A stretch of DNA of 58,799 nucleotides from Viridothelium virens (Eukaryota > Ascomycota > Dothideomycetes > Trypetheliales > Trypetheliaceae): NCBI GenBank assembly GCA_010094025.1, contig ML991876.1:1-58799 (forward strand), given 5' to 3'. The position numbers and the translations under genes were made by a program. The notes beneath the pieces are model-generated. The model was not told the origin of the DNA. It ran no database searches and worked only from the letters and a program-made list of their open reading frames with translations. Positions 9,324 to 30,473 of the stretch are shown piece after piece (within the stretch, counting starts at the first letter, position 1; each line of letters begins with the position of its first letter).

Positions 9324-10298
9324 TTATGCCGCAACCGATGTCAGTCTATGGACACTCATCCCGGCAAGTGCTCCGAGGCGCCTCGGCGCTTGGGAATTCT
9401 GACGAGCTTCTAGTTGCTCTTTCATGTAACTCACCTTCTTACCGATGCTACTATGCACATTCTTCAAATGCAGTTCGGCTAACTGGACGTAGCTTTCGCG
9501 TTTGACATATCCCAGACCTTTGATAGGGCAGGAATAAGAAAAAGTTGATACCTCAGTGAAGTGCGCGACGCAAGTTTCCTTTACCTGCCAGGGACAGTTA
9601 GGTTCAAGATAGAGAGGTTTATACGGACCTTGCTGCTTGTACGGATATCCCGATCGCGCCACGCTCACATGCTCCGCCTGGACCTCTGGGCTTTTTGATC
9701 CGATCCCTTGACCTTGGTATGTATACAGGGGTATCGCTTTGAAATGTTCCGCGCTCTTACTGAGAAGGATGAAAGGGCGATGCTTTGCGCATGCCGCACC
9801 AATCTGGGTCTCGGCTCTATCTGCATCTCCTGGTAAGATCTTTTGGTTGTAGAGCGGTTCAAGGTAGGGTGCAAGAATTATCGCCCCTTCTTCAAACCTC
9901 TCTTTTGATGCAAATCCATGAAACCAGTTCTCATTCGCAGGATGCTGATCCCAAACGCTCTTGCCATAGTACGAAGGCTGTATTGCAGGAGCCAAAGTAC
10001 TTTGGGCTATGGTGCTCTGTCGAAGAGTTGAGGTCTGGTGATATTTCCCTTCGCATGCTCCCCGTGAAGCCGGATTCCGCCGGTTCCAGACCGATCCGCT
10101 CTGCGCAAAAGACGAACTTGGAATCATGGCAGGCACATTTGATACTGCATTGGCTCGGGTGGCTTTACTGCGGACCTGACCTTGGATAGTCACCCATCCA
10201 TCCCGACCAGAAGACGCATTCGGATTTTTTGCGGTGTCTGGCTGACCTCCAGGGTCTCCGTGCTGTGTCCATGCGTTCCAATCCGTGTTTAGATTCAT
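9324..10298 (-). CDS. DUF6590-like protein, array copy A (minus-strand family)
   Basis: Intronless frame. I start at ATG 10298 (MNLNTDWNAW...), giving 324 aa; the frame stays open about 40 codons further upstream, but paralogues argue against using it. The first 130 residues are Ser/Gln/Pro-rich and poorly conserved. The C-terminal 190 residues are the shared domain: VWDQHPANENWFHG, EEGAIILAPYLEPL, DRAETQIGAACAKHRPFILL, KAIPLYTYQGQGIG, CVAHFTEVSTFSYSCPI, LGYVKRESYVQLAELHLK. The series (G.V..L..EP, AKIRRFVV-like strand, LPIYTYGGQG-like strand, closing helix) resembles the fungal DUF6590 domain; this is by eye and no function is known. There is no signal peptide or transmembrane segment. It is divergent from the plus-strand copy at 10822 across a 523-bp spacer, and its closest relative in the window is copy B (shared C-terminal tail HRL..[VI]AA). 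Confidence 0.75.
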   Translation of the reverse strand: MNLNTDWNAWTQHGDPGGQPDTAKNPNASSGRDGWVTIQGQVRSKATRANAVSNVPAMIPSSSFAQSGSVWNRRNPASRGACEGKYHQTSTLRQSTIAQSTLAPAIQPSYYGKSVWDQHPANENWFHGFASKERFEEGAIILAPYLEPLYNQKILPGDADRAETQIGAACAKHRPFILLSKSAEHFKAIPLYTYQGQGIGSKSPEVQAEHVSVARSGYPYKQQGPYKPLYLEPNCPWQVKETCVAHFTEVSTFSYSCPIKGLGYVKRESYVQLAELHLKNVHSSIGKKVSYMKEQLEARQNSQAPRRLGALAGMSVHRLTSVAA

Positions 10299-10821
10299 GG
10301 TGTGAAAGAGATTTCGAATTGCGAAATGGTCAGGATTTGGTTGCAATACCTGCCAGAAGAATTGAAGGAAGAATTGAAGTGTATCGTACGCTGTTCTCTG
10401 GATGCTGCCAGACAGCACAAGCTGTGCATATCAATCCTAGTCATCTTACTTCTGTGAAGTTCTAAGAAGTATGCAACTTCCCTTAGATCAAAGAGCAAGG
10501 ATGGGTTTCGGAGTCTTCGCTTGGAAAGGATCCTTTCAGGTCTTTGAGATTATAACACTTGAAAGAGAGATTGCTCTCACACAGACCCCTCAAACCTTTG
10601 TTACGCTCAAAGATATACTGCGACAATCGTTCTTGTGGGGAAGCTTGTTCCAATACAAAGGCCATGCCAATGCCAACAGAAAACGTCCTGTTGCGCGTAC
10701 AAGAGCCTGAATTTTCGCCAACTTTGTTTTAACTTGCAAATAGCCCTCATCTCTCTATTTTTTCTTGCTGAATTTGGAGACAAGACGAGTCTATCTGCTG
10801 TTGATTTGACATCCAGCGAAT
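10299..10821. promoter_or_regulatory. Shared divergent promoter region of pair A (523 bp)
   Basis: Spacer between the two divergent start codons. Patches also occur in the pair-B spacer: CTGTGAAG followed within 40 nt by TCAAAGAG, and a C/T-rich stretch shortly before the plus-strand start. It ends in the conserved leader at 10797-10819. Inferred to be a bidirectional promoter from position and constant length (500, 493 and 502 bp in the other pairs); no transcription start is visible. Confidence 0.5.
10797..10819 (+). promoter_or_regulatory. Conserved leader before plus-strand array gene A
   Basis: GCTGTTGATTTGACATCCAG followed by CGA, ending 2 nt before the ATG at 10822. The same 23 nt is found before plus-strand copy B (15846-15868) and, with few changes, before copy C (19239-19260). 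Being at the start codon it is probably in the 5' UTR and could act in translation or as a core promoter element. Confidence 0.75.
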
Positions 10822-12288
10822 ATGAGCAACTTCAAAACTCTCAAATGGGCCTTTGGGTGGCTCGAACAACACATTTGGGGTACAGTGAAATGCTTGAGAC
10901 AGATTCATAGGCTTCCACGTACTAATGAGTGGCCAGATACTCCAGAAGAGGGTCTCATCGCCCCATCGGAACAAGACAGATCTGCACCAGCAACTCAAGA
11001 CAAGGAGCGGTCAACTACCTGTTTGCATGGATGTTCAAGGTGTACCAGAATGTACTCAGCGGCTGAACCTATTGCAGAGACAAGTATTCGAGCGGGCGAC
11101 GCCTCTCCCAACTCGCACGATCAACACACAAATGCACCGCGGTCTCATCCCAGCTTTTCACCAAATGGAGTGCAGGTGGTGACGGTCAACAAAGAGCAAG
11201 CGGAAGTGTACGCACTTCTAATCACTCCTGAGCTTCTAGACTGTCTCCAGAATAATATCTCGACATTCAAAAATGCGGATTCCTTAGACAAGCAGATCAG
11301 TTATCTCGAGGAAGGTCTTGATCATGCCCAAAACAAGTTGAGCGAGACCGAGGAGTGCCTTGCAGAATTGCTTGGTCATGAACGAACTCCTGAGAAAGAC
11401 ACTGTGAAAGCTACCAGGGAGGAAATTGAGGATCTTACTCAGAGGAAAACATCTCTTCAGCAGTGGATTATGAACTTCGAGGACACGTTGGGTCAGCATC
11501 GCCAAGAGCAATTTTCGGCGAACTTCGCAAAGAAATTACACGAGACAACTCTCTATGACCTTCTCCGAAAGCCTTTACAGCAATCTGCTCTTCTACCTCC
11601 GACACAGACAGTACCGCCAGCGTCCGGGATTGACTCATTTTCGATCCACCTTGACAACGATAATTTTGAGGATGAAACGCACAGTTTCTTCGTTCATACG
11701 CAAGGCTACCAGCAGTCTCAGACATCTAGCGAAGCCCTTCGAATGGAATTGCGTGTTGCAATTGAGGAGAAGCAGAATGAAGTAGAAGAGTACCGTCACA
11801 AACTTGACACATTTCCGGAGATATATGCCAAGAATGCTGCACAATTCAATGAAAACGCGGCCAATGGTATTCAGCAAGGCTCAATAGAGACTTTCGATCA
11901 ATGGCACTTCATCCTGAAAGGAGACATCACCAGAGGACTTATCAAAGCGGAGGACGAACTTCAACTGATTAAGCTCCAAGCTCACGAAGCTGGTGTTGAG
12001 CATGCATTCGACGACGCATCTATTTTTCAGGATGACCCTGACGATGGTTATGCGGAAAGCCTTGAGGACGACATGATTCGTTCTGCTCCTTATGCAAGAA
12101 TACAAGGTTGGCGTGACAGCATTCCTACTAATGGCCGTGAGGATATCGCAAACACAATTCCAACTTGCGATGGAGATGATTGGGAAGCAACCCCTGTGGA
12201 GATTGGTGACAGCATCAGCTGTATAGGACATGAGGATCAAGGCCGAAGGATCCGGCGTTGGGAGGAAATGAAACTACAGATACATTAA
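10822..12288 (+). CDS. Acidic coiled-coil protein, array copy A' (plus-strand family)
   Basis: 488 aa, intronless; the start is fixed by alignment with copies B' and C' and by the leader. I do not recognise the family. Visible parts: a Trp-rich N-terminal helix (WAFGWLEQHIWGTVKC) closing with a conserved Cys; a variable linker to about residue 110; a conserved strand-like block VVTVNKEQAEVYALLITPEL; a heptad-type coiled coil (about 140-230); the block LYDLLRKPLQQSALL; a second coiled coil (about 300-400); then acidic motifs FQDDPDDGYAESLEDDMI, SAPYARIQGW and DDWEATPVEIGDSISCIG, and a basic end RRIRRWEEMKL. No signal peptide, transmembrane span or catalytic motif. Paired head-to-head with the DUF6590-like gene at 9324-10298, which suggests co-expression and a joint function. 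A transposon starts about 12 bp after the stop codon. Confidence 0.72.
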   Translation: MSNFKTLKWAFGWLEQHIWGTVKCLRQIHRLPRTNEWPDTPEEGLIAPSEQDRSAPATQDKERSTTCLHGCSRCTRMYSAAEPIAETSIRAGDASPNSHDQHTNAPRSHPSFSPNGVQVVTVNKEQAEVYALLITPELLDCLQNNISTFKNADSLDKQISYLEEGLDHAQNKLSETEECLAELLGHERTPEKDTVKATREEIEDLTQRKTSLQQWIMNFEDTLGQHRQEQFSANFAKKLHETTLYDLLRKPLQQSALLPPTQTVPPASGIDSFSIHLDNDNFEDETHSFFVHTQGYQQSQTSSEALRMELRVAIEEKQNEVEEYRHKLDTFPEIYAKNAAQFNENAANGIQQGSIETFDQWHFILKGDITRGLIKAEDELQLIKLQAHEAGVEHAFDDASIFQDDPDDGYAESLEDDMIRSAPYARIQGWRDSIPTNGREDIANTIPTCDGDDWEATPVEIGDSISCIGHEDQGRRIRRWEEMKLQIH

Positions 12289-12328
12289 CGGCACAAATTT
12301 AGTACAATAGAAATAATGTGCATCCATG

Positions 12329-12341
12329 TGTGACGGGACAC
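12329..12341 (+). repeat. Left terminal-repeat core of the transposon
   Basis: TGTGACGGGACAC, an exact reverse complement of 14146-14158. It lies about 29 nt inside the proposed left boundary. Confidence 0.8.
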
Positions 12342-12986
12342 CTGGTGTGAAGGGACAAAGTGATTGTTCAGGTACTTTAAAATCCCTCTTTGCGAAGCTA
12401 TGAAGTTTAATTCCGAGTTTATCCGGACGAAGAGGAGGAATTAGTGTGGTACGTTATGTCGTAAAATAAGCTTAACGCTATTCCAATTCCAGACGAATTG
12501 TGGCGCATGAGTCTACCGGCGACGCGTTGTTTGTGTGCTGAAGTCGCCTTTCGCTTGTGCATGTCCTTCCCACCATCGTTCGCTCATTGTCTCTTGGAGC
12601 CACTACGTTCCTTACCTTCTTATGGTCGCAAGCGAAGAGCATATTGAGGAAGGAGGGGCACGAGTGCAGTGTGGGGTATTTCAGGGAGCCAAGCTGGCGA
12701 TACTCTACACATCGAATGACAGCCCGCAACACGGTGAAGTTGTGCCTTTTCAACTCACAAGTACAATCAGGTGACTTTCGCATCTCCATCTGCTCAGGTG
12801 GGCGAATGGAGGCTTCGACTGCGATTATGTGCCGTTATCGCCTTTTCCTTTACGTTCCTCTTCACAACACCTTGTACACTCACCACAGGCTCGGAAAACG
12901 TTCATTCCCACATTGAGAACTTTGACCCATACGCCGTAATATCACTCCGCTATCTTCCCACACCATTATTTTCATAGTCAGCTAAC

Positions 12987-13960
12987 ATGGGCCGCGCCCG
13001 AGAGGCGCTAGCAAACCGTGATCGGCTCCTTCCACCGGGGGTGCATGGCACATTGCGTGCCCCAGCCAAACACAGTCAGGCCCCTCGCTCTACTCTCCAT
13101 TATCGTCAAAAGGGACGACCGTCGAAAGAAGAAAGGCTCAAAGCCATATCTTACCCCATGGGAAGAAAAAGCCTTCGCCAACTATGTGTTGCAAGCAGCT
13201 GAGCGTGGGCATCCCGTGCGAATAGAGGCGCGCGTGTTAAGCGCTTCACGGTCACGGCCATCGAATGTATCAGTGGAGATGGTAGGTATTTGAGTCCTAC
13301 GATGATCTGGCCAGCCACCACTCACAGAAGCAACTGGAGCACCTTTCCTACTCCTGGATGGCACTATGCGTGCTCTAAATCTGGATACACTGACTCCTTT
13401 ATCAGCCTACAATGGCTCAAATTTGTATATGATCCCCAAAATAAAGAGCGAGCTAACCAGGAACCCCGTGTCCTAATCTGCGACGGGTTTGGGGCACATA
13501 AATTTCTCGAAATCCTCGAATTTTGTTTGATGAACAACATTCTCCTTTGCCGAATACCCTCGTATACTTCCCACAAGCTACAGCTCTGTGACATTGGAGT
13601 TTTCGCCCCGCTGAAAACCGCCTATCGCGATCAGGTTGAGCGACTAGAGCGAGGAGCTGTCAGTTGAGTCTGTAAGACCATTTCACCGCCTTGTATAGCC
13701 CGGCAAGGGACAAGGCATTCACGAAGAAGAAGAATATCGCGTCCGCGTGGGCCGCAAGCGGTCTTTTCCCATTTAATCCAGACACAGTGCTCAGACAGAC
13801 ACCCAAGCCGCCCGCTGAACCACCCATTCCCGATACCAGAGTCTGTAAGAGTGGAATCGGTCCCTATCCACAAGGCGAAGTACGCCAAGCGCCGTCGACC
13901 TCAGAGTCTCTCACATCGTATAAACTAAACCCTGATCAAAGAAGATGCTCAAGCAGATGA
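12987..13960 (+). pseudogene. Broken pogo-type transposase (HTH + DDE_1 remnants)
   Basis: Pieces in different frames follow the order of a pogo/Fot1 transposase. From 12987: an HTH_psq-like piece with APRSTLHYRQKGRPSKEER. After a frameshift near 13130: a CENP-B/Tc5-type piece KPYLTPWEEKAFANYVLQAA. Then a jump that skips the first part of the DDE domain, including the first catalytic Asp region. From about 13330: GWHYACSKSGYTDSFISLQW, VLICDGFGAHKFLE (second catalytic Asp) and LQLCDIGVFAPLKTAYRDQ, stopping at 13667. A further in-family piece, SAWAASGLFPFNPDTVLRQ, follows in another frame to about 13830. Several frameshifts and an internal deletion make it inactive. Confidence 0.72.
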
Positions 13961-14145
13961 TAAGGTGGGTAAACAGCATCTACAGAGGCACCTTCAAAAA
14001 CTTGGCAATTCCGCCCAAAGATCCTCTACCGAACGTGCCCTGCTTCAAAGTGAGAACAGGTTGCTACATCAGAAAAACATCAAATTATCTAAGACATTGA
14101 CCTATTCACAAAGTTATACCTAATTCAACTCAGTGTACCCGTCGA

Positions 14146-14158
14146 GTGTCCCGTCACA
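14146..14158 (-). repeat. Right terminal-repeat core of the transposon
   Basis: GTGTCCCGTCACA, the exact inverse of 12329-12341. An additional GTGTCCCG follows at 14163-14170, matching the 17-nt spacing of GGGACA units in the left end. Confidence 0.8.
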
Positions 14159-14452
14159 GAGGGTGTCCCGCCGTGCGTGTATGGACATTATATTCTTGAC
14201 TACAAATGCCTTTCGGCTCACCGTCACTATTTGATGGCCTTTGTGTTCGGGGTTGATGTGACGTAATATATTCATATTACCCACAAGTCCTTGCAAATCA
14301 CAGTACTGGATACAGGTATCTCTACGATTGGTCCTTTCTATTCATATCCCTCTATCAATGGAAGTTAATCATTGCACAGTAAGAAGTCCATATTCCTGGA
14401 GCACTCTATATTTCTTCAAAGAGGCATAACCAAAAACTATCTGAAGACAGGT

Positions 14453-15379
14453 TTAGGCAGCAATTGGCTCCAGCCTGTGGAGATTTGTCCCAGGCAGACC
14501 TCTTACGTGCCTCGGAGATTGCGCATAAGTGCTTGGGTTCTTGTGGATGTTCAGCTCCTCTTTTATGCGACTTACCTTCATTTCGATGGCAACATGGACA
14601 TCCTTGAGGTGCAATTCGGTTAGACGAATATAGCTCTCTCGATTGATGTAGCCCAAAAGAAGTATGGAGCATGAGAAGGAGAAGGCATGGACCTCAGTGA
14701 AACGAGCAACGCACTTCTCACTTACCTGAAACTTCGAAGATGCCTCCAACCACAGAGGCTTGTGCGGCGTCTGTAATTCGTACCTGTTGCCTGGCCGAGC
14801 AAGGCTGACATGCTCTGCCTGTACTTCTTGAGGCTTGCCTTCGAGACCTCTTGATTGATATGTCCAAAGAGGAATAGCTTGGAAATGATCTAAGTGCTTG
14901 CTGAGGATAATGTATGGGCGATGCTTAGCACATGCTGCACCAACTTCCGTCTCGGCTCTTCCAGGAGCATCGAGCGGAATTTTGGTGTCTAATAGAGGCG
15001 CAATGTAAGGTGCAAGGATTACGGCACCCTCCTCGATTTTCTGTTTGACGGTGTATCCATGAGTCCAGCCCCTACCTCCTGGGTGCATATCGAACACTGT
15101 TGAGCCAATCCATGTCTTCGGGGCTTTGGACGGACACAAGGTTTCTTGGCGGGATATGGAAGCCTGGTGAAACTTGCTTGAGGGTTGGGCAGCTGTTAGG
15201 GCGCTCTTTGGTGGTGCTGCCCTGGACCTGTATGTGGAATAATTTCCTCTTCTGCTCTTTCCAGCCGTCCTCCACTCTTCTTGGCGACTATAAGAGCTTG
15301 GATTATTTTCAACTGCAGTAGGATGACCGCAGCCGTGCTGCTGTGTTCTGCCTCTTTGATAATCGAGATCTAGGGTCAT
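14453..15379 (-). CDS. DUF6590-like protein, array copy B
   Basis: 308 aa, intronless, ATG at 15379. Shared domain about residues 90-275: VFDMHPGGRGWTHG, IEEGAVILAPYIAPLLD, GRAETEVGAACAKHRPYIIL, FQAIPLWTYQSRGLEGK, CVARFTEVHAFSFSCSI, LGYINRESYIRLTELHLKDV. The variable N-terminus is basic and Ser/Gln-rich. Closest to copy A. It lacks one Gly of the otherwise conserved QG.G turn (QSRGLEG). Divergent from B' across 500 bp, and convergent with A' once the transposon is discounted (about 265 bp between the two stops). Function unknown; presumed intracellular as no targeting signal is visible. Confidence 0.75.
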   Translation of the reverse strand: MTLDLDYQRGRTQQHGCGHPTAVENNPSSYSRQEEWRTAGKSRRGNYSTYRSRAAPPKSALTAAQPSSKFHQASISRQETLCPSKAPKTWIGSTVFDMHPGGRGWTHGYTVKQKIEEGAVILAPYIAPLLDTKIPLDAPGRAETEVGAACAKHRPYIILSKHLDHFQAIPLWTYQSRGLEGKPQEVQAEHVSLARPGNRYELQTPHKPLWLEASSKFQVSEKCVARFTEVHAFSFSCSILLLGYINRESYIRLTELHLKDVHVAIEMKVSRIKEELNIHKNPSTYAQSPRHVRGLPGTNLHRLEPIAA

Positions 15380-15879
15380 TCTGAGAATGGAACTTGTGCT
15401 GTATCTGTAAAGAGTGAGATATTATGGAGGATGTTAGAGAGAACCAGGGCTTTTGTAATCTGTAAAGGGTCAGCAACAGAGCATCCGAGAAATGTATAGC
15501 AAGGGCATACTGTGAAGCTCAGATACGAAGCTTCTTTTGGCGGTCAAAGAGATGCCTTCGCTTTCTTGCGATCATGGCAATGCTTTGAAGATCGACAAAA
15601 GGTGAAGATCAGGAACAAAAGAATGTTCTTAGTTCAACCTTCATATGCAGTCTTTGTCTTTTACAAAGAACTATTTCATCAAACTTTCAGCCACTACAGA
15701 TCGCTCGCAATACGGGCAAAGATGTGCTTGCTGTATACTTTACAAAATATCAAAAAGCCCGCCATCTCACCAGAGTTCTGCAGGCAGTCTTTCTACTTTT
15801 TAGTCTATCTTCGATCCTCCGTACTAACCCAAAATTTCTTCTATTGCTGTTGATTTGACATCCAGCGACGAGAGCTATC
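15380..15879. promoter_or_regulatory. Shared divergent promoter region of pair B (500 bp)
   Basis: Between the two divergent ATGs. Contains the CTGTGAAG ... TCAAAGAG patch also seen in pair A and a pyrimidine-rich run before the leader at 15846-15868. Inferred bidirectional promoter. Confidence 0.5.
15846..15868 (+). promoter_or_regulatory. Conserved leader before plus-strand array gene B'
   Basis: Identical 23 nt to the copy-A' leader (GCTGTTGATTTGACATCCAG then CGA), here 11 nt before the ATG at 15880. The surrounding spacer has diverged, so identity here suggests constraint or gene conversion. Confidence 0.78.
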
Positions 15880-17322
15880 ATGGATCAATTCAGACAAGCG
15901 TACAATTGGCTCGAGCAGCAAGTCTTGGATATGGTGCAATGCCCAAGAGATCTCGACGAAGCTGCGATTGCTAATGCAGATGCAGTCGCGATATCCGCCG
16001 CTGATGAACTTGCGGCACGCAAACAAGGACCAGAACCATCAGAGCAAAATGGCAGAGCTTTGCTGTTAGATACGAGCAGACAGCTATCACCTCGTATCTC
16101 TAGGCTGGAGCCTGAATGTCGTGACAGCAAGCCTACCATCCGAATTGCCGAGTCCATGAGCTCCAATCTGTCGAACTCTCAATGGCATGTGCAAAGTGGC
16201 AGCGTAAATATGGATGAGCGAGATATTTCAGACACAGGAGAGCAAGTGGCAATAGTCAACAAGAATGGCAAAGAAGCCCATGCACTTCTCCTTACTTCTG
16301 AACTTCTCGATACCCTTCGGACTAATATCGAGATCTCCCGCACTACCGATGGCTTAGACAAAAAGGTCCGTGATCTAGAGAATGCCCTCGGTAGCGCCCG
16401 GGCAGAGCTGGCGCAAATCGACATGTCTTTGGCCGACTTGTTTGGGCAGAAATCAGCTCCAGGTCAATACATATCATCGAATGGTATTGACAGGCAGACA
16501 GAAGAACTGAATGCCAAGAAAGATGACCTGAGTCGGTCAATTGAAAAGCTCCAACGCATCCTCGATGCCTATCAGTGTGAGCAGTATTCGACTGATTTTG
16601 CGAGAAAGACATATGGACAGGCTTTCCTGGACATGCTTGAAAAGCCCTTGAATCAAAGTGGTCTATTGAATACCATCGAAAGACCACGAGAACCTTCCAA
16701 CCCAGAGTCGATTCCAGTTCAACTTGATCATGACCAGCCTTTGAAGGAAACATACTCTTATATGGACTTCAGTGCAGCAGGATGGGAAGAGAACTCGGTT
16801 TCCCCAAGCGAGGAGGAGAGACTGAATCTGCGCCAGCTCATCGAAGAAAAAGAGAATAAAATCGCAGAATGTCGGCATCATCTAGAAAACTTTCGCATGA
16901 TCTATGATAGAAACCTCTCAAATTTTCTATCGGACCGAGCAAATGGCGTTCACAACGACTCTAGAACACAATTTGACCATTATCACTTTACTCTAAAGAG
17001 CCAAATAACGAGGCAACTTATTGAGGCAGAAGCAGATCTCCGAACTGCCAAGGAACAGGCCCGCGAAGTTGGTATAGCGCACGCGTTTGATGAAGAATCT
17101 GTATTCCAGAGTAACATCAACGACGGCTATGCGGAAAGTTTTGAGGAGGATATGATTCATACAGCCCCTCGCGCAGATATACAGGCTTGGCAGGAGGATA
17201 TCCCTGATGAAGCCTATGAAAACGGCGTCGTCATTAGTGTCCCAAATTTCAGCGTTGACGAATGGGAAACAGAGTCTGTGGAAATTGGTGATAGTATTAA
17301 TTGCGTAGGTCATGAAGGCTAG
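15880..17322 (+). CDS. Acidic coiled-coil protein, array copy B' (ends at an early TAG)
   Basis: 480 aa, intronless. N-terminal helix YNWLEQQVLDMVQC; conserved block QVAIVNKNGKEAHALLLTSE; coiled coil (about 145-230); FLDMLEKPLNQSGLL; second coiled coil (about 310-400); acidic motifs INDGYAESFEEDMI, TAPRADIQAW and DEWETESVEIGDSINCVG. The frame ends HEG-TAG at 17320-17322, but the next 15 codons read GRKIQRWEEIKLQMH and then TGA (17368-17370), matching the normal C-terminus of copy A' (GRRIRRWEEMKLQIH). So an in-frame nonsense change has removed the conserved basic tail; a CAG to TAG transition would explain it. The body has no other break, so it may still be expressed. Paired with copy B. Confidence 0.72.
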   Translation: MDQFRQAYNWLEQQVLDMVQCPRDLDEAAIANADAVAISAADELAARKQGPEPSEQNGRALLLDTSRQLSPRISRLEPECRDSKPTIRIAESMSSNLSNSQWHVQSGSVNMDERDISDTGEQVAIVNKNGKEAHALLLTSELLDTLRTNIEISRTTDGLDKKVRDLENALGSARAELAQIDMSLADLFGQKSAPGQYISSNGIDRQTEELNAKKDDLSRSIEKLQRILDAYQCEQYSTDFARKTYGQAFLDMLEKPLNQSGLLNTIERPREPSNPESIPVQLDHDQPLKETYSYMDFSAAGWEENSVSPSEEERLNLRQLIEEKENKIAECRHHLENFRMIYDRNLSNFLSDRANGVHNDSRTQFDHYHFTLKSQITRQLIEAEADLRTAKEQAREVGIAHAFDEESVFQSNINDGYAESFEEDMIHTAPRADIQAWQEDIPDEAYENGVVISVPNFSVDEWETESVEIGDSINCVGHEG

Positions 17323-17789: not shown

Positions 17790-18770
17790 CTAGGCAGACG
17801 ATTCTACAAGAATGTGTAAGCTTTTTGACGGTGCAACTGAAGCTTTGCAGCGCTTGCCAGTGACCGGACGCTTGCTCACATGGGGTATGACCTGCACATC
17901 TCCCTGTATCTTTTTCTGAGCCCTCCCAAGCTTAATATTGACACTCGTCATGTAAAGGTCGACCAGGCGGGCATAACTTCGTTGAGTTATATACCCTAAA
18001 AGTCTTATAGGACAAGAATAAGCAATGGAGTGGAGCTCAGTGAAATGAGCAACGCACGTATCTTTGACTTCCCAGGTTGTTTCATCTTCAAGCATCAATG
18101 GCGCATGTGGACCTTGTTGCGCACTGTTCAGCATCGGCTTTGTTATACCAACGTTCTCTGATTGAAACTCCAGTGACCGATTCTCAATGCCTTTACCTTG
18201 ATGCGTCCATAAAGATATAGCCGTATAGTGCAGCTCATGCTTGGCAAATATGATGTACGGACGATGCTTTGCAATCGCAGCGCCAATGTGAGTTTCTGCT
18301 CTATCCCTGTGGCCCGGACCAATATTATCATCCAGGAGTGGCTCCATGTATGGAGCGAGTACCACAGCTCCTTCCTCCAGACCCTCTCTTATACGTTTAA
18401 TACCTTTTATCCAGCGCTGGTGCGCTGGATGTTTGTCCATAATGGACGATGGTGCTATGAAGATCGGTGGCGGCTGTATGGTGGTCTCAGTTATGGTCGT
18501 GGGCTGATGACGCTTGTTCGTTTCGGGAATTGAGTACACCACGCTTTGCCTCTTACTCGAGACGCTGCCTGGAACTAGCGGCTTGTCCCATGCAGATGGT
18601 GGATGTATAGGAGTTCTTGAGGATCCGGTGAGAGTGCTAGGCGCCTCTCGACGGTGCGATCCCAGTTGCACCATTCCATTCCTTTGGTTTGAACTTAGAA
18701 CCCTTGTAGATCGATCTCGCTGTTCCTCATTATTCGATAGCCCATTAGCTGCTCCTCGGAAGCCCGGCAT
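17790..18770 (-). CDS. DUF6590-like protein, array copy C
   Basis: 326 aa, intronless, ATG at 18770. Shared domain about residues 110-290: IMDKHPAHQRWIKGI, LEEGAVVLAPYMEPLLDD, DRAETHIGAAIAKHRPYIIF, TAISLWTHQGKGIENR, CVAHFTELHSIAYSCPI, LGYITQRSYARLVDLYM. The N-terminus is Ser/Thr/Pro-rich and unlike copies A and B. All core motif residues (HPA, GA, EPL, RAET, AK.RP, QG.G, HFTE, SCPI, LGY) are kept, so it looks intact. Head-to-head with C' across 493 bp. Confidence 0.75.
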   Translation of the reverse strand: MPGFRGAANGLSNNEEQRDRSTRVLSSNQRNGMVQLGSHRREAPSTLTGSSRTPIHPPSAWDKPLVPGSVSSKRQSVVYSIPETNKRHQPTTITETTIQPPPIFIAPSSIMDKHPAHQRWIKGIKRIREGLEEGAVVLAPYMEPLLDDNIGPGHRDRAETHIGAAIAKHRPYIIFAKHELHYTAISLWTHQGKGIENRSLEFQSENVGITKPMLNSAQQGPHAPLMLEDETTWEVKDTCVAHFTELHSIAYSCPIRLLGYITQRSYARLVDLYMTSVNIKLGRAQKKIQGDVQVIPHVSKRPVTGKRCKASVAPSKSLHILVESSA

Positions 18771-19263
18771 AATTTTTTTCGGGTACCTGCAGTAAGAAAA
18801 ATTTATTGTAGTACTAGAAAGTTGTCTGGTGGTCTAGAAAACATGATAATCCATCGCAAAAGAGCTTCACTAAATAATCATATTAGTGTAGTAAAGTTGG
18901 AATCTTTGTAAAACTTTCACAAAGAATTGTAATAAAAGTAAAGCATTGAAAGGTGAGCATTTCTTTGTCGCTGACCTTGTGATCCGCCGCCTAGCTTCAC
19001 CTGCTATTCCTGGAACTCTTATTATGGCATAAAGAAATGAGCCACTCCATTCATTTCCTTTCCTTTGTATAATGAGGGCTATTTTTTCGTCTTGATTGCT
19101 TTATTATGGCTCGTCTTTACAGTGCCAGGTGTATAATAAGTATCACAAGGCGTTGGTGTCCCTCAACAAGCACTTAGGATTTTTAACTACTATACATCTG
19201 GTTCTCTTTTGAAGAGCACCAGAATTCACTCTGAACAAGCTGTTGATTTGTAATCCAGCAATA
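18771..19263. promoter_or_regulatory. Shared divergent promoter region of pair C (493 bp)
   Basis: Spacer between the divergent ATGs at 18770 and 19264. More AT-rich than in pairs A and B, ending in the leader at 19239-19260. Inferred bidirectional promoter from position and constant length. Confidence 0.5.
19239..19260 (+). promoter_or_regulatory. Conserved leader before plus-strand array gene C'
   Basis: GCTGTTGATTTGTAATCCAG then CA: the A'/B' leader with a small change in the middle (GAC to TAA region). It ends 3 nt before the ATG at 19264 and supports that start over the upstream non-ATG codon at 19243. Confidence 0.7.
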
Positions 19264-21200: not shown

Positions 21201-22310
21201 TTAAACAGTGAGTGGGCTGCCACCTACAGTAAGTTCCACCTGACTTGGTATCGTTGACATTCCTCCAAGCACGTTTACTTTTGTGCTCAACTCTGTCTCG
21301 ATCTCTCTCTCCATTTCCTCCACATTCCTATCGAGATTGTTGATGAGCGCTTCCCTGTACATGCATGAAAGATGGATATAGCTTTCGCGAATGATGTAAC
21401 CGAGAGGCTGGACTGGGCAGGAATAAGAGATTGCCTGTGGCATTGTAAAATGGGCTACAGATATCTCACCTGCGTTCCATGTGGTATCTTCTTCGACGAT
21501 AAGAGGCTTATGTGGCCCTTGTGGTAACGTTATATCACCAGGCCTTACCACACTTACGTATTCTTCTTGCATTTGTCGTGTCTTTTTCCCGATCCCCTCT
21601 CCTTGAAAGGTGAACAGTGGAATGGCGACGAGGTGTGCTTGGCACTTGAATAACAGAATGTAGGGGCGACGTTTTGCTGAAATGGCTCCGATACGCGTCT
21701 CCCCTCGATCTCGATGGCCGATTGGAATAGCTGGATTGAAAAGAGGCTCAACGCAAGGGGCCAGAAAGATGGCTCCAAACTGAAGCTGAGACTTGATCTC
21801 TTTGGCTCCATGTATCCAGTTCTTCTCCGCTGGATGTTGATCCCAGACTGAAGTGCCAGCATAAGGCTGATGACCAGGGTGTTTTGGAAGGTCTCGATTG
21901 GATGCTACAGCTTGAGAAATTGCAAGACGTTTGCATGGAAGTAAGTCCTCCTGAATACTGCTCTCCCGCTTTCTCTTAGTGCCCCTCGCCTTCAGAGTGA
22001 TTAGGTTAAGGGCTGAAACTGTAGTACATTTAGGGAGATTCGCGCTCATTCTAGAGAGACTCACCTTTCTGCGTACTTGATCTGTGCAGAACAGAGTTCC
22101 AAATGAGACTTCTGGGTGCTTGAGTAGGGTCTGTATCTGCCAACCTGCAGCAGCTTGGTGACAGAGACTGGTTTCCATTACTTGGCGCCAGGCCAGAAAT
22201 GGATTTTTAAAATTCGTTATCTCGTTGAACACATATTTCGAAAGCGGCTGCAGCAGGGTTACACCTATAAAAAATAGCAATCTCCAGTCAAGGTCAGATT
22301 GAGTGAACAT
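21201..22310 (-). CDS. DUF6590-like protein, array copy D, without a partner
   Basis: 369 aa, ATG 22310, intronless as read. Shared domain about residues 150-330: VWDQHPAEKNWIHGA, LQFGAIFLAPCVEPLFN, DRGETRIGAISAKRRPYILL, VAIPLFTFQGEGIGKK, SVAHFTMPQAISYSCPV, LGYIIRESYIHLSCMYRE. It departs from the others at RGET (RAET elsewhere) and AISAKRRP. The N-terminal 110 residues differ completely from other copies, with Cys residues and a basic KRKRESS stretch that could be a nuclear localisation signal. There is no plus-strand partner: the position about 0.5 kb upstream is taken by the 3' end of the histidine kinase gene. Confidence 0.7.
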   Translation of the reverse strand: MFTQSDLDWRLLFFIGVTLLQPLSKYVFNEITNFKNPFLAWRQVMETSLCHQAAAGWQIQTLLKHPEVSFGTLFCTDQVRRKVSLSRMSANLPKCTTVSALNLITLKARGTKRKRESSIQEDLLPCKRLAISQAVASNRDLPKHPGHQPYAGTSVWDQHPAEKNWIHGAKEIKSQLQFGAIFLAPCVEPLFNPAIPIGHRDRGETRIGAISAKRRPYILLFKCQAHLVAIPLFTFQGEGIGKKTRQMQEEYVSVVRPGDITLPQGPHKPLIVEEDTTWNAGEISVAHFTMPQAISYSCPVQPLGYIIRESYIHLSCMYREALINNLDRNVEEMEREIETELSTKVNVLGGMSTIPSQVELTVGGSPLTV

Positions 22311-22774: not shown

Positions 22775-25700
22775 TCACCCGCTCTTCCCAGCAAGCTTCC
22801 TCCTCGCCCGCCCCAACACCGGATCCAGCAGCTTCAACCGCACCGGCTTTGGAAAGAACTCATTTGCCCCACTCGCCTTGGCCTCTTGGATGTTTTCCTT
22901 AGTTGCCAAGCCCGTAAGGACCACGATGCACACGGGATCAAGCCGCTCGCGCATCTCGTACTCGCGAATAGCGCGCGATGCTGCGACACCATCGAGCTGC
23001 GGCATCTGGATGTCCATAAAGATGCAGCTGAAAGCGCCACGCGCAGCCTGATAGGCCGCAACCGCGAGCGCGCCATTCGTGGCGGTGGCGACAGGGAGAT
23101 TCTGCCGGCGGAGGTAGGTGCTCAGAAGCTTGAGATTGATGGCGTTGTCGTCGACGATTAGGTATGGTGCTATGTCTGAGTCTGGCGTGGGCGGCGAGGC
23201 AGCTGATGGAGCGGATGGTGGTGGCAGCACGTCAGGCGTCGATTTTGGACTGAGGTCCGGATCACGCGAAGAAATGGGCTGCGGTGGATGTGGCTGATGT
23301 TCCGTCGAGTTAGTTGGGCTCGATGTTGCCTTTGACGGGGTTATCGAAGGTGAGGTGGAAGCAGAGGTAGTTACATTGCGTTGAGCGATGGAGCTACTAT
23401 CCTCATCAGGTTGCTCCTGTGTATGAACAGAGGAAGAAGAAAAGGCCCCAGGTAATCGCCCGAGCATCTGACTAGCTTGTTCAAGTTGAATGTCGGCCCA
23501 GCGGTCGAGTGCAAGCGTGAAAGTCTTTGCAAGTTTCCGAGGCCCACAACTAAAATGGCATTGTTAGAAATTCTTATTTTGTGAAGATTTGTGATCAAGA
23601 CTTACGGCTGCGCAATGTATTCAAACACGCCATTGCGTTCTATGGTCCTGGACGTGGTGGAGAGATGGCGGGCAACGGCTGCGCTCGGGCAAATCACCAC
23701 AACGGGCTGGATGACGACGCCGGCCTTGTTCATGTCGGCTAAGGCTTCCGCGCCTGCGAGTGTTGCCAAGTAGATATCCGGCTTTATGGCAGTCTCTGTC
23801 GAGGGCAGTACGTCCATGTACAGCCAGGCCTGACACTGACGTGCAATAGCTGTCCTTGGCAACTGCCAATCCTTGCTCTTATTTGGGATTCCTTGTGCCG
23901 TTAACGCAACAGTGTCATTGAAGCCGGAGAGTGAGACGCGGAGACCTTTTGTGCGACTAATCAAGACTGCAAAGGTACTATTCTCGTGGGAAGTCTCGGC
24001 AGAGGTGGAATGAGGTAGAGGGAGCGAGATGGACATTGTCGATCCCCTACCTGTCTCACTCTGTGCATCAATGGTGCCACCGAGTGATGTGACAATCTTG
24101 TGCGTAATCGAGAGTCCTAGGCCTGTACCAGGTGACAGGGAATTCTCCTGTGAAAAAGGAGTGTAGAGGTGATGAGCTAGATATTCCTTGCTGATGCCTT
24201 TGCCCGTGTCCTCAACAATAATCTTGACCTCTGATATAGGTGCACCTTTCCCTGGCAACTCTTTCTGATCTACAGTGACCTTGATATGCCCGCCCACAGT
24301 GTATTTCAGCGCATTACCGAATATGTTCATCACTATCCGTCGCACTGCTCCCGGTTGTGTGGAAAATCTCCAGCTCGCCGCTGGACTTATGTCGAGAATA
24401 ATCTTGACTTGATCATGTGACGTTCCTCTGGAAGTGGGTTCAATCTGCTTGCTCAGCACTTCCGTGTCCAAATCCCTAACGGTCGGGTCGGGAGACATGA
24501 GGTCTGCCTGAGTGTCTAAAGAATTGCTGGATGCCTCGAATTCATGACCGGCAAAGACGCTCTCGACAACTTCTTCTATGATGGAACCAATATCAACATC
24601 CCAGGCTACAGCTGTTGAGTTGCGGTCCATCATATTGGAAGCTTGACTATCACCATCGCGCCGTGGCGTCTGCCGTCTCGTTTTGGATGCCCGCATGATA
24701 TTGTTGACCTTTGCATAGTCGAGCAAATGGTTAATAGTATCCAGTAGCGTCATGCTGCACCTTTCAATGGTGTGAACGGTGCTATCCTGAAAGACGTCTA
24801 TGCTCGTCTCTTGAAGCAGCTCCACGCCCCCAAGGATGCCATGCAGCGGCGATCTCAGCTCGTGCGAAATGGATCCCAACACATCTGTCTTCACCCGATT
24901 CGCCTGCTGTGCATCAATCTTGGCGACTTCAGCCATGATTGTCGCACCAAACGCGCGGAGGTAACTAAGCTCGCTTTTGACAGAAAAGACGCGGGTAGGT
25001 GTGCGCGTCCACGCAACACCACCAGCGTACCAACGTGACCTGTGCGAGTCCCAGAGCGGGAAAGCAAGAACACTGCGAGCATTGGGGAAAACTTTGATAA
25101 TGAAAGAAGGCTCTTTGCTGCGAGCGAAAGACTGCTGGCGCTGACGGCGACCACGAGACGACCCATCAGTAATCGCCGCAGTTGCGCTGCTCGCCGAATC
25201 CTGATGGTCGCTATCGCTCTCAGTATCGGAAAGCGGTACCCCCTCTTCATCAAAATTGAAGATCTTGCCTTCGGGATACCGTCGCAGCAGTAGGTGGAGA
25301 AAGCGTTCTGGCACAGCAAGATGCTCAGCATTGGGTTTGTCGCCATCAATGCTAGCGATTCCGGTCGTGGAGAAACCGAAAATTTCGCACGTCTTATCAT
25401 CGCGTAATCTTCTATTTGACCCTGACCTCACAGATCGCACGCTTTCCTCTCCGCTCGAAGACGATTGTGAGTTGTGTGAGTTGCCTGTGTCGCAAGAGTC
25501 ATGCTGCTCAGACTCTATCATGCCTCCATACGTGGTGACGCTAGCATCGAAGAATAAGACGCCTTCAACCTCAATGGACTCGCGAATAGTATTTGCAGCG
25601 CGGGAAAAGAGGCTGCGAATGTCATGCGCTGAAGGCGCTGGACTAGGCGTCCCCGTGAGCGATGTTGACTTTCCTCCTGACTTGACAGAGCCGGCCAGCG

Positions 25701-26649
25701 ACGGTGACTCCGATACAGATTTGAAAAAGCGGTGCGGAACGTCGGTTTCACCTGACGCCCGCCGTTCGGCAGAGTTGGAAGTTGGCGACGCCGGTGGTGA
25801 TGATGATGATTCCGGGGCGAAGCACGACTGTGTACCGTGCACGTCTTGCAAAGTAGCATTGTCCTCTCCATTAGTGAGCCCTGTTTCCTCGTGCATTCTT
25901 GCCTGTTGAGCTACGTTCAGCATACCCTCCTGACCGGCATCGCCTCCCGGTCGAGTTGACCACTGATCCGAGGAGAGACCGGTTATGGTTGTCATGCCTT
26001 CAACGAAACTTCCTAAACCACGCATCATTCTCTTACCGCGAGCTTCATCCTGTCTGTAGCGGACCAGTACCAGGTGATCCATAATTGTTGAGGACATGTC
26101 TCGCAAGAAGTCCGCCTCGGTATTGCCAAGAGCCTCGCGCGGCTTGCTGTCTGTGACGGAGAAGACACCAATGAGGGAGCCAGCAGGGCTGCGAATTGGG
26201 ACCGAAGCATAGAACCGAATGTCCTCGTGCGCATTGAGGAAGCGGCTGGATGCGAAGCGACTGTCGACCTGCACGTCGGGCACGACGATCACTGGCATCG
26301 TCCATGCAGCATCATCCTTATTCCCACCTCCTGTAGAACAGGCTGCCAGGCTGTCGGAAGTGACTTCGAGGGCATGACTCGAAACTCCTTGAGAATGCGG
26401 AAAGGCGAGGCCACAGAGAAGCAGGTTCTCGTCGGTCGGCTTATCTGGGGAGCTCCTCAGAGTGGAGGAGGCAGTTGTCTCCGCAATTACATATTGGTAG
26501 CGACGGTCAAAGAGGGAGACGAACGCGCGATGAGCACCCAACCGTAGCAGGCCTAACTGTGCAAAAGCCGTCAAAGCCCGGTCACGACCAGGGCGCGCTG
26601 GCGGGATGGGGTCGTTTGCATTGTCGACGAAGCCATGAACTGCAGACAA
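22775..26649 (-). CDS. Hybrid histidine kinase with GAF domain and receiver
   Basis: Fungal hybrid two-component kinase. Two exons seen: 26649-23606 and 23549-22775, with a 56-nt intron (GTAAGT..TTTTAG) joining EYIAQP to CGPRKLAKTFTLAL; 1272 aa as read. Order: GAF-like sensor (about 25-200, with FYASVPIRSPAGSLIGVF); a long Ser-rich linker; HisKA with H-box SISHELRSPLHGILGG (phospho-acceptor His about residue 596 of this reading); HATPase with N-box FGNALKYT and G-boxes VEDTGKGIS and GTGLGLSI; receiver with IVDDNAINLKLL, phospho-acceptor Asp in FMDIQMP, a Thr in VVLTG, and Lys in FFPKPV. All catalytic residues are present. The first codon of the frame is not ATG and an acceptor (TTGTCTGCAG) lies just there, so a short 5' exon is missing. 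No transmembrane segment; likely cytosolic, signalling through a phosphotransfer protein. The fungal class was not assigned. Confidence 0.85.
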
Positions 26650-27631
26650 GTCAAGATGACTATTGTGAGATTCCGATCAGTGAGGGCATAGCGAAAAGTG
26701 GAATCGTCAAATTCACCGATACGTCTCTCGTTCGTGTACCAAGGCCGTAATGCCTTTGTCGGTCATACCCGTGCAGAATCATCCAGCATCCCTTGACTGC
26801 TCGGGCTGAGATGGAGAACTGAAAAGTGCATGGTATTATGGGAATTGCCATATGCCAGATTTAAGCGGGATTCTAGACCCACGTACCGTGACTCCTGTCT
26901 TACCCGATTCCGCTAGAAGCCCGCAGCCCGTCTCGAAAGGAACTGCTACGCCAATTGCCACTGGCGTGTAAGAACCCTGCGCGTTGATCATTACATCATT
27001 AGACCGTCTGTACTTAGGTAGTTGTCTCAGTTGGTGTAATCGCTTCTTGAGATTTCAACGACTTGCTCTATGAAGCAAGAAAGAAGTGAGAATGTGAGAG
27101 TGGTAGGAGTTTTAAGGAAGAGGCAGTCTTCGGAGTATACCAAGACCAAGCTGCTATGGCAAGAGCATAGAAGCGCACAGTTATGGTCTACAGCTTCGTA
27201 CTTCCATTCAAAGGTCCGAGCTGACAATATCACTAAGGGAGCCCGAGCTATGGCTTTGGTGATTCGAGTCCATTATGTACTAGTATGGACAGGGGGAAAT
27301 AGAGGGTAGAGCCATGTTTAGTTCTGAGGTTATGCGGCATCGTTGCTTAGATCCATAAAGTCTAGGTACCCGGCTCCAGGCAGTTCAAATCTGAGTGGCC
27401 TTGGAAGATCATAGTGGCAAAGTGTCTCGGATGCTTAAACCACTCAAGGGAGCTGTATTGAGAACTGATGGCTACTGCAGTAATATTCACACATTGGATT
27501 CATGTAATAAACCCCTCCCACCTCTCGAAAGCAGACCCTCTGCAAAATGTAGAATCAGAAATCACCAAGAGTCATTGTGAATGTGTATAGGAGATGGCCC
27601 AGACTTGGCTATGACGAGTAGGGCCAGCATG
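26650..27631. other. Upstream region of histidine kinase; missing first exon expected here
   Basis: About 1 kb with no independent gene. The 5' exon of the histidine kinase should lie in the first few hundred bases; an open stretch at 26660-26851 on the minus strand may contribute, but I could not find an unambiguous donor. The remainder is 3' flank of array copy E. Confidence 0.4.
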
Positions 27632-28498
27632 TCATAAATTTGTAAGAGCAAGGCTGGACATTGTCTCATCGAGAGAGCCTTGCGTGTTCGCGCGACCACC
27701 CTTTCTGTATAGTGCCCACAGACGCAGAAGGCTCTCCATCGTGATGTAACCTTTGGGCAGAATTGGGCAGGAATAGTCAATGCAGTAAGGTTTCGTAAAA
27801 TGAGCATGTGCTTCTGGTTTGATCTGCCATCTTGTGCCAGCTTCGAGCAACAGAGGCAAGTGAGGCGCATTGCTAGCCCTTTCTGGTCCCAGTCTTGAGA
27901 TGCCAACGTATTCTTGCCGCAGCTCTGGATGAAACTGCTGGATGCCTTTGCCGTCATGAGTGAATATCGGAATCGCCGTGAAATGTCGCTCATGCTTCGA
28001 TAAAATGATGAAGAAGCGTTTCTTAGCAAATAGAGCCCCGCCAACGTTCTCTGCCCGGTTTCCATGCCCTGGCGCAATGCTCGTATCGAGCAGTGGGCCG
28101 ACATGCATGGCGAGGATGATTGCTCCTTCTTGGATGCCTCGTTTGACTTCGTTTATACCACAAATCCACCCGTCTTGCCTTTTGTAGCAGTCGTACACTG
28201 TCGAGTTCCCTGTGCAGCTCTGTGGCAAGTGAAAAACCCTATCTGGAAGTTCATATCCCTGCTGTCTTGTGTGGTGTTTTTCGTTTAGATGCTGCGGAGC
28301 TACCGAGAGTTTTGATGTAGTCCTAGCCACCGGTATAAGACCTCTTGAAGGTGCCGTGACGCCTGTTTCCGGGATCTTGGATATTTTTGAAGCTGTAATA
28401 ATAACTCGGGGATTTCGTTTCGCAGGTAGTCCCGAATTCGGGCGTTGATCAGCAGCATTCGACTTTGAAGACCTCGGAAAGTACTGAGGAAGAGCCAT
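27632..28498 (-). CDS. DUF6590-like protein, array copy E
   Basis: 288 aa, intronless, ATG 28498; the most divergent minus-strand copy. Shared domain about residues 100-275: VYDCYKRQDGWICGI (HPA lost), IQEGAIILAMHVGPLLD (EPL replaced by GPL), NRAENVGGALFAKKRFFIIL, TAIPIFTHDGKGIQQ, HAHFTKPYCIDYSCPI, KGYITMESLLRLWALYR. Several otherwise invariant residues have changed while fold-level spacing is kept, so it may have a shifted function or relaxed constraint. Separated from copies A-D by the histidine kinase. Head-to-head with E' across 502 bp. Confidence 0.72.
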   Translation of the reverse strand: MALPQYFPRSSKSNAADQRPNSGLPAKRNPRVIITASKISKIPETGVTAPSRGLIPVARTTSKLSVAPQHLNEKHHTRQQGYELPDRVFHLPQSCTGNSTVYDCYKRQDGWICGINEVKRGIQEGAIILAMHVGPLLDTSIAPGHGNRAENVGGALFAKKRFFIILSKHERHFTAIPIFTHDGKGIQQFHPELRQEYVGISRLGPERASNAPHLPLLLEAGTRWQIKPEAHAHFTKPYCIDYSCPILPKGYITMESLLRLWALYRKGGRANTQGSLDETMSSLALTNL

Positions 28499-29000
28499 GA
28501 CTGTTAAGAGTGTGTCACAGCGTCTTTGTCAAGTACTAATGACGAATGTATTTTCAGAGAATTTGCGTACAATTTAACAGGTCGAGCCAAGGCCTTTGTG
28601 CTGTGTTAAGTGCTTGTGAATACCTTGACTTAAAGTCATGAACTTTGACAGCAATTGCGACATTTTTCAGAAGTCCGTGGGGAATGACCGAAGATCCTAC
28701 GATATGAATTCCGCCGATTACCTGCTACGTAAGCCATGAAACTGCGCGTTAAAAGGGCACAAAGAGCTAGGCTAGTCCGGAGCCAGGAAATCTTCAGCAG
28801 TATATCTTAGGCAACACTCAAGCCGATACCGCTATACAATCAATTCTTCCTCGTTCAAAGAACCTCTGAGAGTGCTCGCCCTATGCGAAGGCGAAATTTG
28901 GCCTGACATTTTCTTGCGAAATCCTTCGTGTAAGCGTCGAAGGCCTACTCGTAGCAGGTCTGTCTGCTTCGCGAAAATTCCGTAGAGGACGGCTCCCACA
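28499..29000. promoter_or_regulatory. Shared divergent promoter region of pair E (502 bp)
   Basis: Same length as in the other pairs, but no leader motif precedes the plus-strand ATG here and no patches shared with pairs A-C were noticed. Inferred bidirectional promoter. Confidence 0.45.
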
Positions 29001-30473
29001 ATGAGACAACTAGCCACAATGCGCAATTGGTGGAAGAATTGGAGGCGAGATAGAAAAATAAAATGTACAACCAAACCAATGGAAAGTCGAGCAACAGGTG
29101 TCCTCTCTGTACCTCAAGCGCAGCCGATCGGAGCGGACTTCCCAGCAGAAGCCTCCGCACGCCTTGAACAGCAAAGCGGCGCAAATCCCAATCCCTACAA
29201 TCTGAGGGACGCAGGATACAGCTATAGCAGAATATCTGACGAGTCGCAGCCAGAATGGAATTTCAACATCATCGGCAACGCAACAGACTCCCTCCGAGGG
29301 TTTGAAGAAGAAAACAACCGACGTTCTACAGGAGCAGTATTGAGTGAGAGAGCTCCAGAAGTATTCGTGGCCAATAAAGGCACCACTCAGTACTTTGCTC
29401 TGCTCCTGTCGGTAGACTTGGTGGAACAGCTTAAAACAAAGCTGCAGATTAGTAGGATGATCTCTGCGGCGGAGCAACTGATCCGAGCATCAGAAATCGA
29501 CAAAGCCATGGTGCAGCATACAAGCATGCAGATTGATGCTGAGCTTTCCCGGCTCCGCAGCAAACAAGGGGACCCAAGCCAAAGGCAAGAGACCGACATC
29601 GAAAGCCTCAGGAAGCAGATTCTTAAGGAATGTACCCTGAAGTGCAGGGCTGATAGGATGTTGGAGTTGGTGGCAAATAGGCTCGAGAAGTTGCAGGAGC
29701 ATGTGCAAACGCTATCCATATCGAACAGAATTCATGAAACAGCATATCAAGATCTCCTGGCACAGCCTCTTCGAGAATCCGGATTACTCGTCGAAGACGA
29801 AGAGTTGATTTCGATCAGTCGTGCACTGGAAGAACCCCATCTTGAATGCGATCAAGGTAGCCTCTTCACGAAATATTCAAACCTGAGTGATGAGCCCGAG
29901 CGCAGCACCGATAATCCGCAGGCTAGCGAACTGTTGTTGATGAACATTAGGCAGGATCTTGATGAGAAAGGTGCGATTCTTGCCAACATCAAGGAAGAAT
30001 TTGAGGGCCTGGACGGGAACTACTATCGCGATAAAGTGGCGTTTCTCGAAGAGCTAGCCGATGGAGAGCATCAGCACGACATTTCCGACTTTGATGTCTT
30101 CCATGCTCGAAGGAAACACGAAGTCACCCGCCAGCTCATCAACGCCGAGGCGGAATACGACGAAGCTAGGCAATGCGCCTTTGACGCTGGAATCCGGCAT
30201 TTTGAAGACGACGAGTCTCGTTTCCAAGATCGATCTGATGATGGGTACTCCGAGTGGACAGGGGGCAAGGTTGAACAGAGAATCCATCATGAGTGTATCG
30301 GTTCCTGGTTAGATGATCTAAGTGAGTCTGAAGACAGTGCTTCTCGTACTGTCCTAGAAGTGGATGAGTGGGATGCGGAGTCCGTTGATGTTTCTGATAG
30401 CATTAGTGCGAGGGCAGTAGGCCGTCTACGCAGTAAGATCGATTGTTGGAATGAGAGAGTGATGGCTTATTAG
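29001..30473 (+). CDS. Acidic coiled-coil protein, array copy E'
   Basis: 490 aa from ATG 29001; ATG 29019 (MRNWWKNWRRDRKIKC) is an alternative that puts the Trp-rich helix at the N-terminus as in other copies. The helix is much more basic than in A'-C' but keeps Trp residues and the terminal KC. Conserved blocks: EVFVANKGTTQYFALLLSVD; coiled coil about 150-235; YQDLLAQPLRESGLL; second coiled coil about 310-400; FQDRSDDGYSEW; DEWDAESVDVSDSIS. The C-terminal RRIR.WEE tail is only weakly kept (LRSKIDCWNE). Most divergent plus-strand copy, as its partner E is among the minus-strand copies, which suggests that each pair diverged as a unit. Confidence 0.7.
   Translation: MRQLATMRNWWKNWRRDRKIKCTTKPMESRATGVLSVPQAQPIGADFPAEASARLEQQSGANPNPYNLRDAGYSYSRISDESQPEWNFNIIGNATDSLRGFEEENNRRSTGAVLSERAPEVFVANKGTTQYFALLLSVDLVEQLKTKLQISRMISAAEQLIRASEIDKAMVQHTSMQIDAELSRLRSKQGDPSQRQETDIESLRKQILKECTLKCRADRMLELVANRLEKLQEHVQTLSISNRIHETAYQDLLAQPLRESGLLVEDEELISISRALEEPHLECDQGSLFTKYSNLSDEPERSTDNPQASELLLMNIRQDLDEKGAILANIKEEFEGLDGNYYRDKVAFLEELADGEHQHDISDFDVFHARRKHEVTRQLINAEAEYDEARQCAFDAGIRHFEDDESRFQDRSDDGYSEWTGGKVEQRIHHECIGSWLDDLSESEDSASRTVLEVDEWDAESVDVSDSISARAVGRLRSKIDCWNERVMAY

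Follow-up and report, generated by a model that had tools for sequence, protein, structure and literature searches.

The 58,799-nucleotide stretch of Viridothelium virens DNA analysed here (contig ML991876.1, positions 1 to 58,799; hereafter the window) carries an array in which DUF6590-like genes on the minus strand stand head to head with genes for acidic coiled-coil proteins on the plus strand (Table 1). We give about even chances to the reading that these are tandem two-gene modules working like toxin–antitoxin pairs. The minus gene would encode a basic protein whose C-terminal domain has the MazF/PemK ribonuclease-toxin fold, as predicted for A and extended to B–E by homology, and the divergent plus gene would encode a coiled-coil partner of strongly acidic character, which binds and restrains the MazF-fold protein, as acidic antitoxins do, probably by masking a basic RNA-binding face. 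Matched partners would diverge together, as the comparisons below partly show, and duplication and replacement between individuals would yield new pairs of private specificity. An imbalance, such as might follow fusion with a strain bearing other pairs, infection, or the loss of a partner from spores, would free the ribonuclease, and the cell would be stopped or killed. The pairing, its recurrence in other genomes, the parallel divergence of the two families and the opposite charges of the partners are direct observations.

The original prediction described five DUF6590-like minus genes and four coiled-coil plus genes, arranged as the divergent pairs A/A', B/B', C/C' and E/E' with D alone. Strands, positions and intact frames were confirmed; each of the nine genes is one open reading frame (ORF) with an ATG and a stop codon and no internal stop. 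The distances between minus-gene stops that it gave for A–B, B–C and C–D (5129, 3337 and 3411 bp) are correct, and its subtraction of a transposon of about 1.9 kb from the first also holds, since the element measures 1879 bp and its removal brings the A–B spacing to 3250 bp. The size of the divergent spacers is preserved across the pairs, as had been claimed, at 493–523 bp, despite the fact that their sequence is barely conserved outside a 21-bp box.

Both families are diverged within the array. The minus proteins have 32–50% mutual identity over their length and 40–60% within the domain, and E matches the other four with E-values of 3e-35 or better. The plus proteins have 25–38% mutual identity, and A' matches the other three with E-values of 9e-26 or better. 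DUF6590 is PF20233, a family for which Pfam describes no function and sets a curated cut-off of 27 bits; the minus proteins match it along the domain in all five cases, A and E above the cut-off and B, C and D below. They form a diverged subfamily with a partner of its own, whereas no homologous partner accompanies the remaining DUF6590 loci in this genome (contigs 27, 38 and 48). No Pfam family scored above its cut-off in any of the four plus proteins. Searches of the 30.7-Mb assembly (175 contigs) that used A', E' and a distant relative as queries recovered the coiled-coil family from the array only, as four members; two additional matches (E 0.5 and 0.11) were unconvincing. Sequence searches of the PDB gave no match to a DUF6590-like profile; with a coiled-coil partner, they gave 11 weak matches to assorted coiled-coil or helical chains, the best at E 0.17.

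When the domain of A (residues 112–302) was modelled alone, structure prediction gave the MazF/PemK SH3-like barrel fold; full-length prediction with nine sequences failed, at a predicted local distance difference test score (pLDDT) of 37.6. The available text of PMC10893535 describes an arginine and a threonine as essential and highly conserved in MazF, namely Arg25 and Thr48 in B. subtilis and Arg29 and Thr52 in MazF-sth. An arginine in an RP-strand motif, aligned by hhalign to Arg29 of E. coli MazF, occupies the corresponding catalytic column in all nine window-family rows. The column is also invariant in ten of ten rows after the addition of the contig 27 and contig 38 genes, an alignment without the DUF6590-like relative P0006 and without the contig 48 gene, which is broken across frames. 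A threonine on the next strand is present in nine of nine window-family rows and is a serine in the contig 38 gene; it falls one residue off the catalytic threonine in the profile alignment. Among the matches listed up to E 10 for profile hidden Markov models (HMMs) of Pfam, NCBIfam and PHROGs (six proteins each), none was to PemK/MazF. Sequence homology to E. coli MazF is not claimed, MazF having ranked only 3 and 11 among 165 E. coli ORFs.

The partners carry opposite charges throughout. All eight DUF6590-like proteins examined have an isoelectric point (pI) of 8.8–9.7 and a net charge of +6 to +15, and all ten coiled-coil proteins a pI of 4.5–4.9 and a net charge of −26 to −46. This is suggestive, short of proof, and would match what is expected of an RNA-binding toxin and an inhibitor shielding its RNA face. 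With MazEF and PemIK (Kid-Kis) the array has in common the predicted MazF/PemK fold, the conserved RP-strand arginine, and two adjacent genes encoding a basic toxin-like protein and an acidic partner. However, MazEF and PemIK each form one operon, while the array genes are divergent across 0.5-kb spacers, lie in a fungal genome, and encode a coiled-coil partner of about 490 amino acids (aa) and a minus protein with a long N-terminal extension. No MazE/AbrB-type antitoxin was matched up to E 1 by any of the four plus proteins. We do not file the array as MazEF because the partner and gene order differ, no PemK/MazF HMM matches, and the array is known from sequence and predicted fold alone.

The pairing recurs outside V. 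virens. The database searches, which require shared 5-residue words and therefore miss distant relatives, returned five coiled-coil matches with a four-sequence profile, three with C', and seven DUF6590-like matches, own copies included. Outside the window, these comprise six coiled-coil proteins (P0002, P0003, P0004, P0005, P0014 and P0015) and four DUF6590-like proteins (P0006, P0010, P0011 and P0012). A has 99% identity to Q9157_002316 from Trypethelium eluteriae (order Trypetheliales, class Dothideomycetes), and the 57,597-bp contig carrying that gene also carries P0014 (coiled-coil, 002312) and P0011 (DUF6590-like, 002313) under adjacent tags. P0003 and P0012 each come from one ENA contig of exactly 38,235 bp, almost surely the same contig for both, and this pair has 58% identity to A and 48–50% to A'. 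Bathelium mastoideum has both families (P0004, M1822_008446; P0010, M1821_003743) under different assembly prefixes. P0005 sits on a contig of 2,883 bp, and no partner was seen for P0002, P0005 or P0015. Judged from locus tags and matching contigs, pairing is shown or strongly implied for two of the six outside coiled-coil proteins. The distant relative P0015 (source lgn, 19,736-bp contig) shares 29% identity with C' across 353 residues and has a comparable motif at its C-terminus; given this protein, the coiled-coil family may reach beyond Trypetheliaceae.

The two families have diverged in parallel. Across the six pairs that are certain (A, B, C, E, ENA and Q9157 C; D, P0002, P0005, P0006 and P0015 were omitted, having no partner row), the distance matrices correlate at r 0.907, a value that 2 of 720 relabellings reach, counting the true one. 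When Bathelium is added by assumption as a seventh pair, r becomes 0.910 (10 of 5040 relabellings), and for the four window pairs only it is 0.955 (1 of 24). Trees of nine rows per family contain no well-supported conflict. P0011 is placed with C (100/98) and P0014 with C' (99/99). The A' types cluster (97/97); on the DUF6590 side the A types do likewise, joined by D, at weak support (83/94). B' adjoins the A' types (92/97), and B is unresolved on the DUF6590 side. The claim that the unit of duplication was a whole pair is supported by the recurrent pairing in Q9157 and on the ENA contig, the correlated distances and the non-conflicting trees. Whole-pair duplication predicts such congruence, which alone is no proof of interaction.

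Turnover rates seem to differ greatly between the pairs, to judge from their identities. Compared with its Q9157 counterpart, C shows 62% and C' 51% identity, as against 99% for A between the same two genomes, and the tags of these two counterparts lie three and four numbers from that of the A counterpart. The 90% database clusters of B, C, C' and E have one member each and that of A has two; the A' cluster has three members and one contig, and cluster sizes were therefore given little weight. The divergence of pair C fits balanced alleles, as at het-c/pin-c, and also fits paralogue gain and loss.

Table 1. Features of the array and its intervening elements, in window coordinates
Feature	Position	Strand	Description
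A	9324..10298	-	DUF6590-like, 324 aa, basic (pI 9.4); Pfam 31.8 bits, above cut-off
Divergent spacer A/A'	10299..10821	.	523 bp
21-bp box before A'	10797..10817	+	4 nt ahead of ATG
A'	10822..12288	+	Acidic coiled-coil partner, 488 aa, pI 4.8
Pogo/Fot1-type transposon (DDE_1)	12313..14191	+	Separates the A and B pairs; terminal inverted repeats of 45 bp
B	14453..15379	-	DUF6590-like, 308 aa, pI 9.5; Pfam 18.7 bits, below cut-off; fold via homology to A only
Divergent spacer B/B'	15380..15879	.	500 bp
21-bp box before B'	15846..15866	+	13 nt ahead of ATG
B'	15880..17322	+	Acidic coiled-coil partner, 480 aa, pI 4.6; without the last ~15 family residues
C	17790..18770	-	DUF6590-like, 326 aa, pI 9.7; Pfam 24.8 bits, below cut-off; fold via homology to A only
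Divergent spacer C/C'	18771..19263	.	493 bp
21-bp box before C'	19239..19259	+	4 nt ahead of ATG
C'	19264..20784	+	Acidic coiled-coil partner, 506 aa, pI 4.8
D	21201..22310	-	DUF6590-like, 369 aa, partnerless; Pfam 16.7 bits, below cut-off; fold via homology to A only
Two-component histidine kinase and response regulator ORFs	22775..26676	-	Intervening gene, outside module
E	27632..28498	-	DUF6590-like, 288 aa, most diverged, pI 9.7; Pfam 31.9 bits, above cut-off; fold via homology to A only
Divergent spacer E/E'	28499..29000	.	502 bp; without 21-bp box
E'	29001..30473	+	Acidic coiled-coil partner, 490 aa, pI 4.8

The original prediction also held that the two products work together. The predicted fold of A and the opposite charges make this likelier, but it is unproven. 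D persists partnerless, with no remnant of a partner found in the genome by the searches with A', E' and the distant relative, and the coiled-coil searches gave no match on contigs 27, 38 and 48, so that the three other DUF6590 loci of the genome are without such a partner. Both results would suit a local accident, in which unrelated neighbours were carried along by tandem duplication and congruence reflects shared history with no functional link. One-piece duplication does predict congruence, and four of the six outside coiled-coil relatives are not demonstrably beside a DUF6590-like gene. We nevertheless think such an accident unlikely: the same pair is retained on the ENA contig, at 58% identity to A and 48–50% to A', and in Q9157; the spacers stay within their narrow size range though hardly conserved apart from the box; and ten of ten partners are acidic against eight of eight basic DUF6590-like proteins. 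A non-toxic RNA-binding complex is somewhat unlikely. It would make the MazF-fold domain a regulator or RNA-processing factor and the coiled-coil protein a scaffold, in an ordinary lineage-specific expansion. A common fold alone shows no function, the catalytic threonine register is off by one residue, and both D and the contig 38 gene do without such a partner; on the other side, the catalytic arginine column is invariant in all ten rows, and the contrast between pair C and A across the two genomes would be fast evolution for a housekeeping complex if the C pairs are orthologous.

That contrast is also the one hint in favour of the self/non-self role entertained in the original prediction, with the qualification that in Q9157 the C pair could be paralogous and not allelic. 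A het-type allorecognition locus, meaning a polymorphic incompatibility module like Neurospora het-c/pin-c whose minus protein may or may not be a ribonuclease, is possible if doubtful. The single-member clusters of B, C, C' and E, against two members for A, point the same way, but cluster size is a weak sign in view of the A' cluster. The available text of PMC2988816 describes het-c/pin-c as a tightly linked two-gene unit whose members vary together, as those of the array may, with trans-species alleles under balancing selection; those alleles were shown there, whereas our comparison is of two genomes, whose assignment to one species would rest on the single protein A, and not a population sample. 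According to the same text, such loci are tied to HET-domain genes, of which the array has none, and no HET, NACHT or HeLo-type Pfam match was found up to E 1 in any of the nine proteins. We consider it very unlikely that the array is a selfish poison–antidote element, or spore killer, spreading by meiotic drive; two-gene poison and antidote logic with tandem expansion is all that would favour it, no result here bears on transmission, and A-type or A'-type proteins in Trypethelium, Bathelium and the ENA contig make the pair look old and retained. Neurospora Sk-2 and Sk-3 are reportedly two-gene fungal spore killers and might have a logic of poison and resistance in common with the array.

The 21-bp box, GCTGTTGATTTGNNATCCAGC, lies ahead of the A', B' and C' start codons at the distances in Table 1. 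No other exact copies were found in the 30.7-Mb genome, and one match with 2 mismatches lies on contig 111. Allowing up to 3 mismatches, the window has four matches against a mean of 0.04 in shuffles; the fourth has 3 mismatches and lies inside the kinase gene, and the search of the window found no box ahead of E'. Candidate roles for the box are those of an operator, an RNA element in the leader, or a site on which the toxin-like protein acts. It contains CAG, and a role as a 3' splice site was rejected: no GT[AG]NG[TA] donor, the sole donor pattern tested, occurs within 450 bases upstream, and a stop closes the reading frame ahead of the A' ATG.

The contig 27 locus (about 236,700–238,470; L001 1312–3083) has a canonical DUF6590 domain at 126 bits. 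Directly downstream, in the same frame and with one TAG between, is an ORF that by eye resembles the helical N-terminal domain of a NOD-like receptor (NLR), without a Pfam match; an NPHP3_N-type ATPase ORF comes next in a different frame, and the whole is preceded by a PNP_UDP_1 ORF. The DUF6590 domain adjoins, and perhaps belongs to, an NLR-type gene, its pieces having been read separately. The contig 38 gene has as neighbours an ORF that looks KH-type by eye and an ankyrin-repeat ORF, with no coiled-coil homologue. At the contig 48 locus (L040 1104–2666 and 4144–4633), the DUF6590 gene and a 520-aa ORF are arranged divergently; the ORF belongs to no known family and by eye resembles a coiled coil. 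This was rejected as a second pairing, the ORF not being detectably homologous to the array coiled-coil family.

Within the array, the kinase ORFs separate D from E and occupy the expected site of the D partner. B' stops at a TAG, and the same frame past the stop (17320–17367) still resembles the family C-terminus. The terminal inverted repeats of the pogo/Fot1-type element (12313–12357 and 14147–14191) are 76% complementary, and the element has at least 13 other genomic matches, of which 11 contain stops.

The name DUF6590 did not occur in any of the 5.39 million papers searched, a set without supplements and subscription papers. Among the matches listed for MazF or PemK with fungi, NLR, incompatibility or mRNA interferase, no such system appeared by title or start of abstract. 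The available main text of a 2025 review of fungal cell death does not use the words MazF, ribonuclease, antitoxin or antidote (PMC12881547), nor does the available text of a survey of fungal NLR effector domains use PemK or MazF (PMC9815663).

We put forward only tentatively, and with some doubt, the wider proposal that this is a eukaryotic MazF-type toxin–antitoxin array with a new class of acidic coiled-coil antitoxin, which has expanded and diversified to serve as a self/non-self or antiviral kill-switch, and that the whole fungal DUF6590 family has the MazF fold, some members being RNase effectors in NLR-type genes. If the MazF/PemK fold is true, a fungal protein family would gain an activity that can be tested, namely RNA cleavage, and a filamentous fungus would have bacterial-style toxin–antitoxin logic in its genome, with the genes newly arranged and the partner new. 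An array of matched, diverged pairs would provide a natural test bed for the evolution of toxin–antidote specificity, and the array is a candidate mechanism of allorecognition in lichen fungi.

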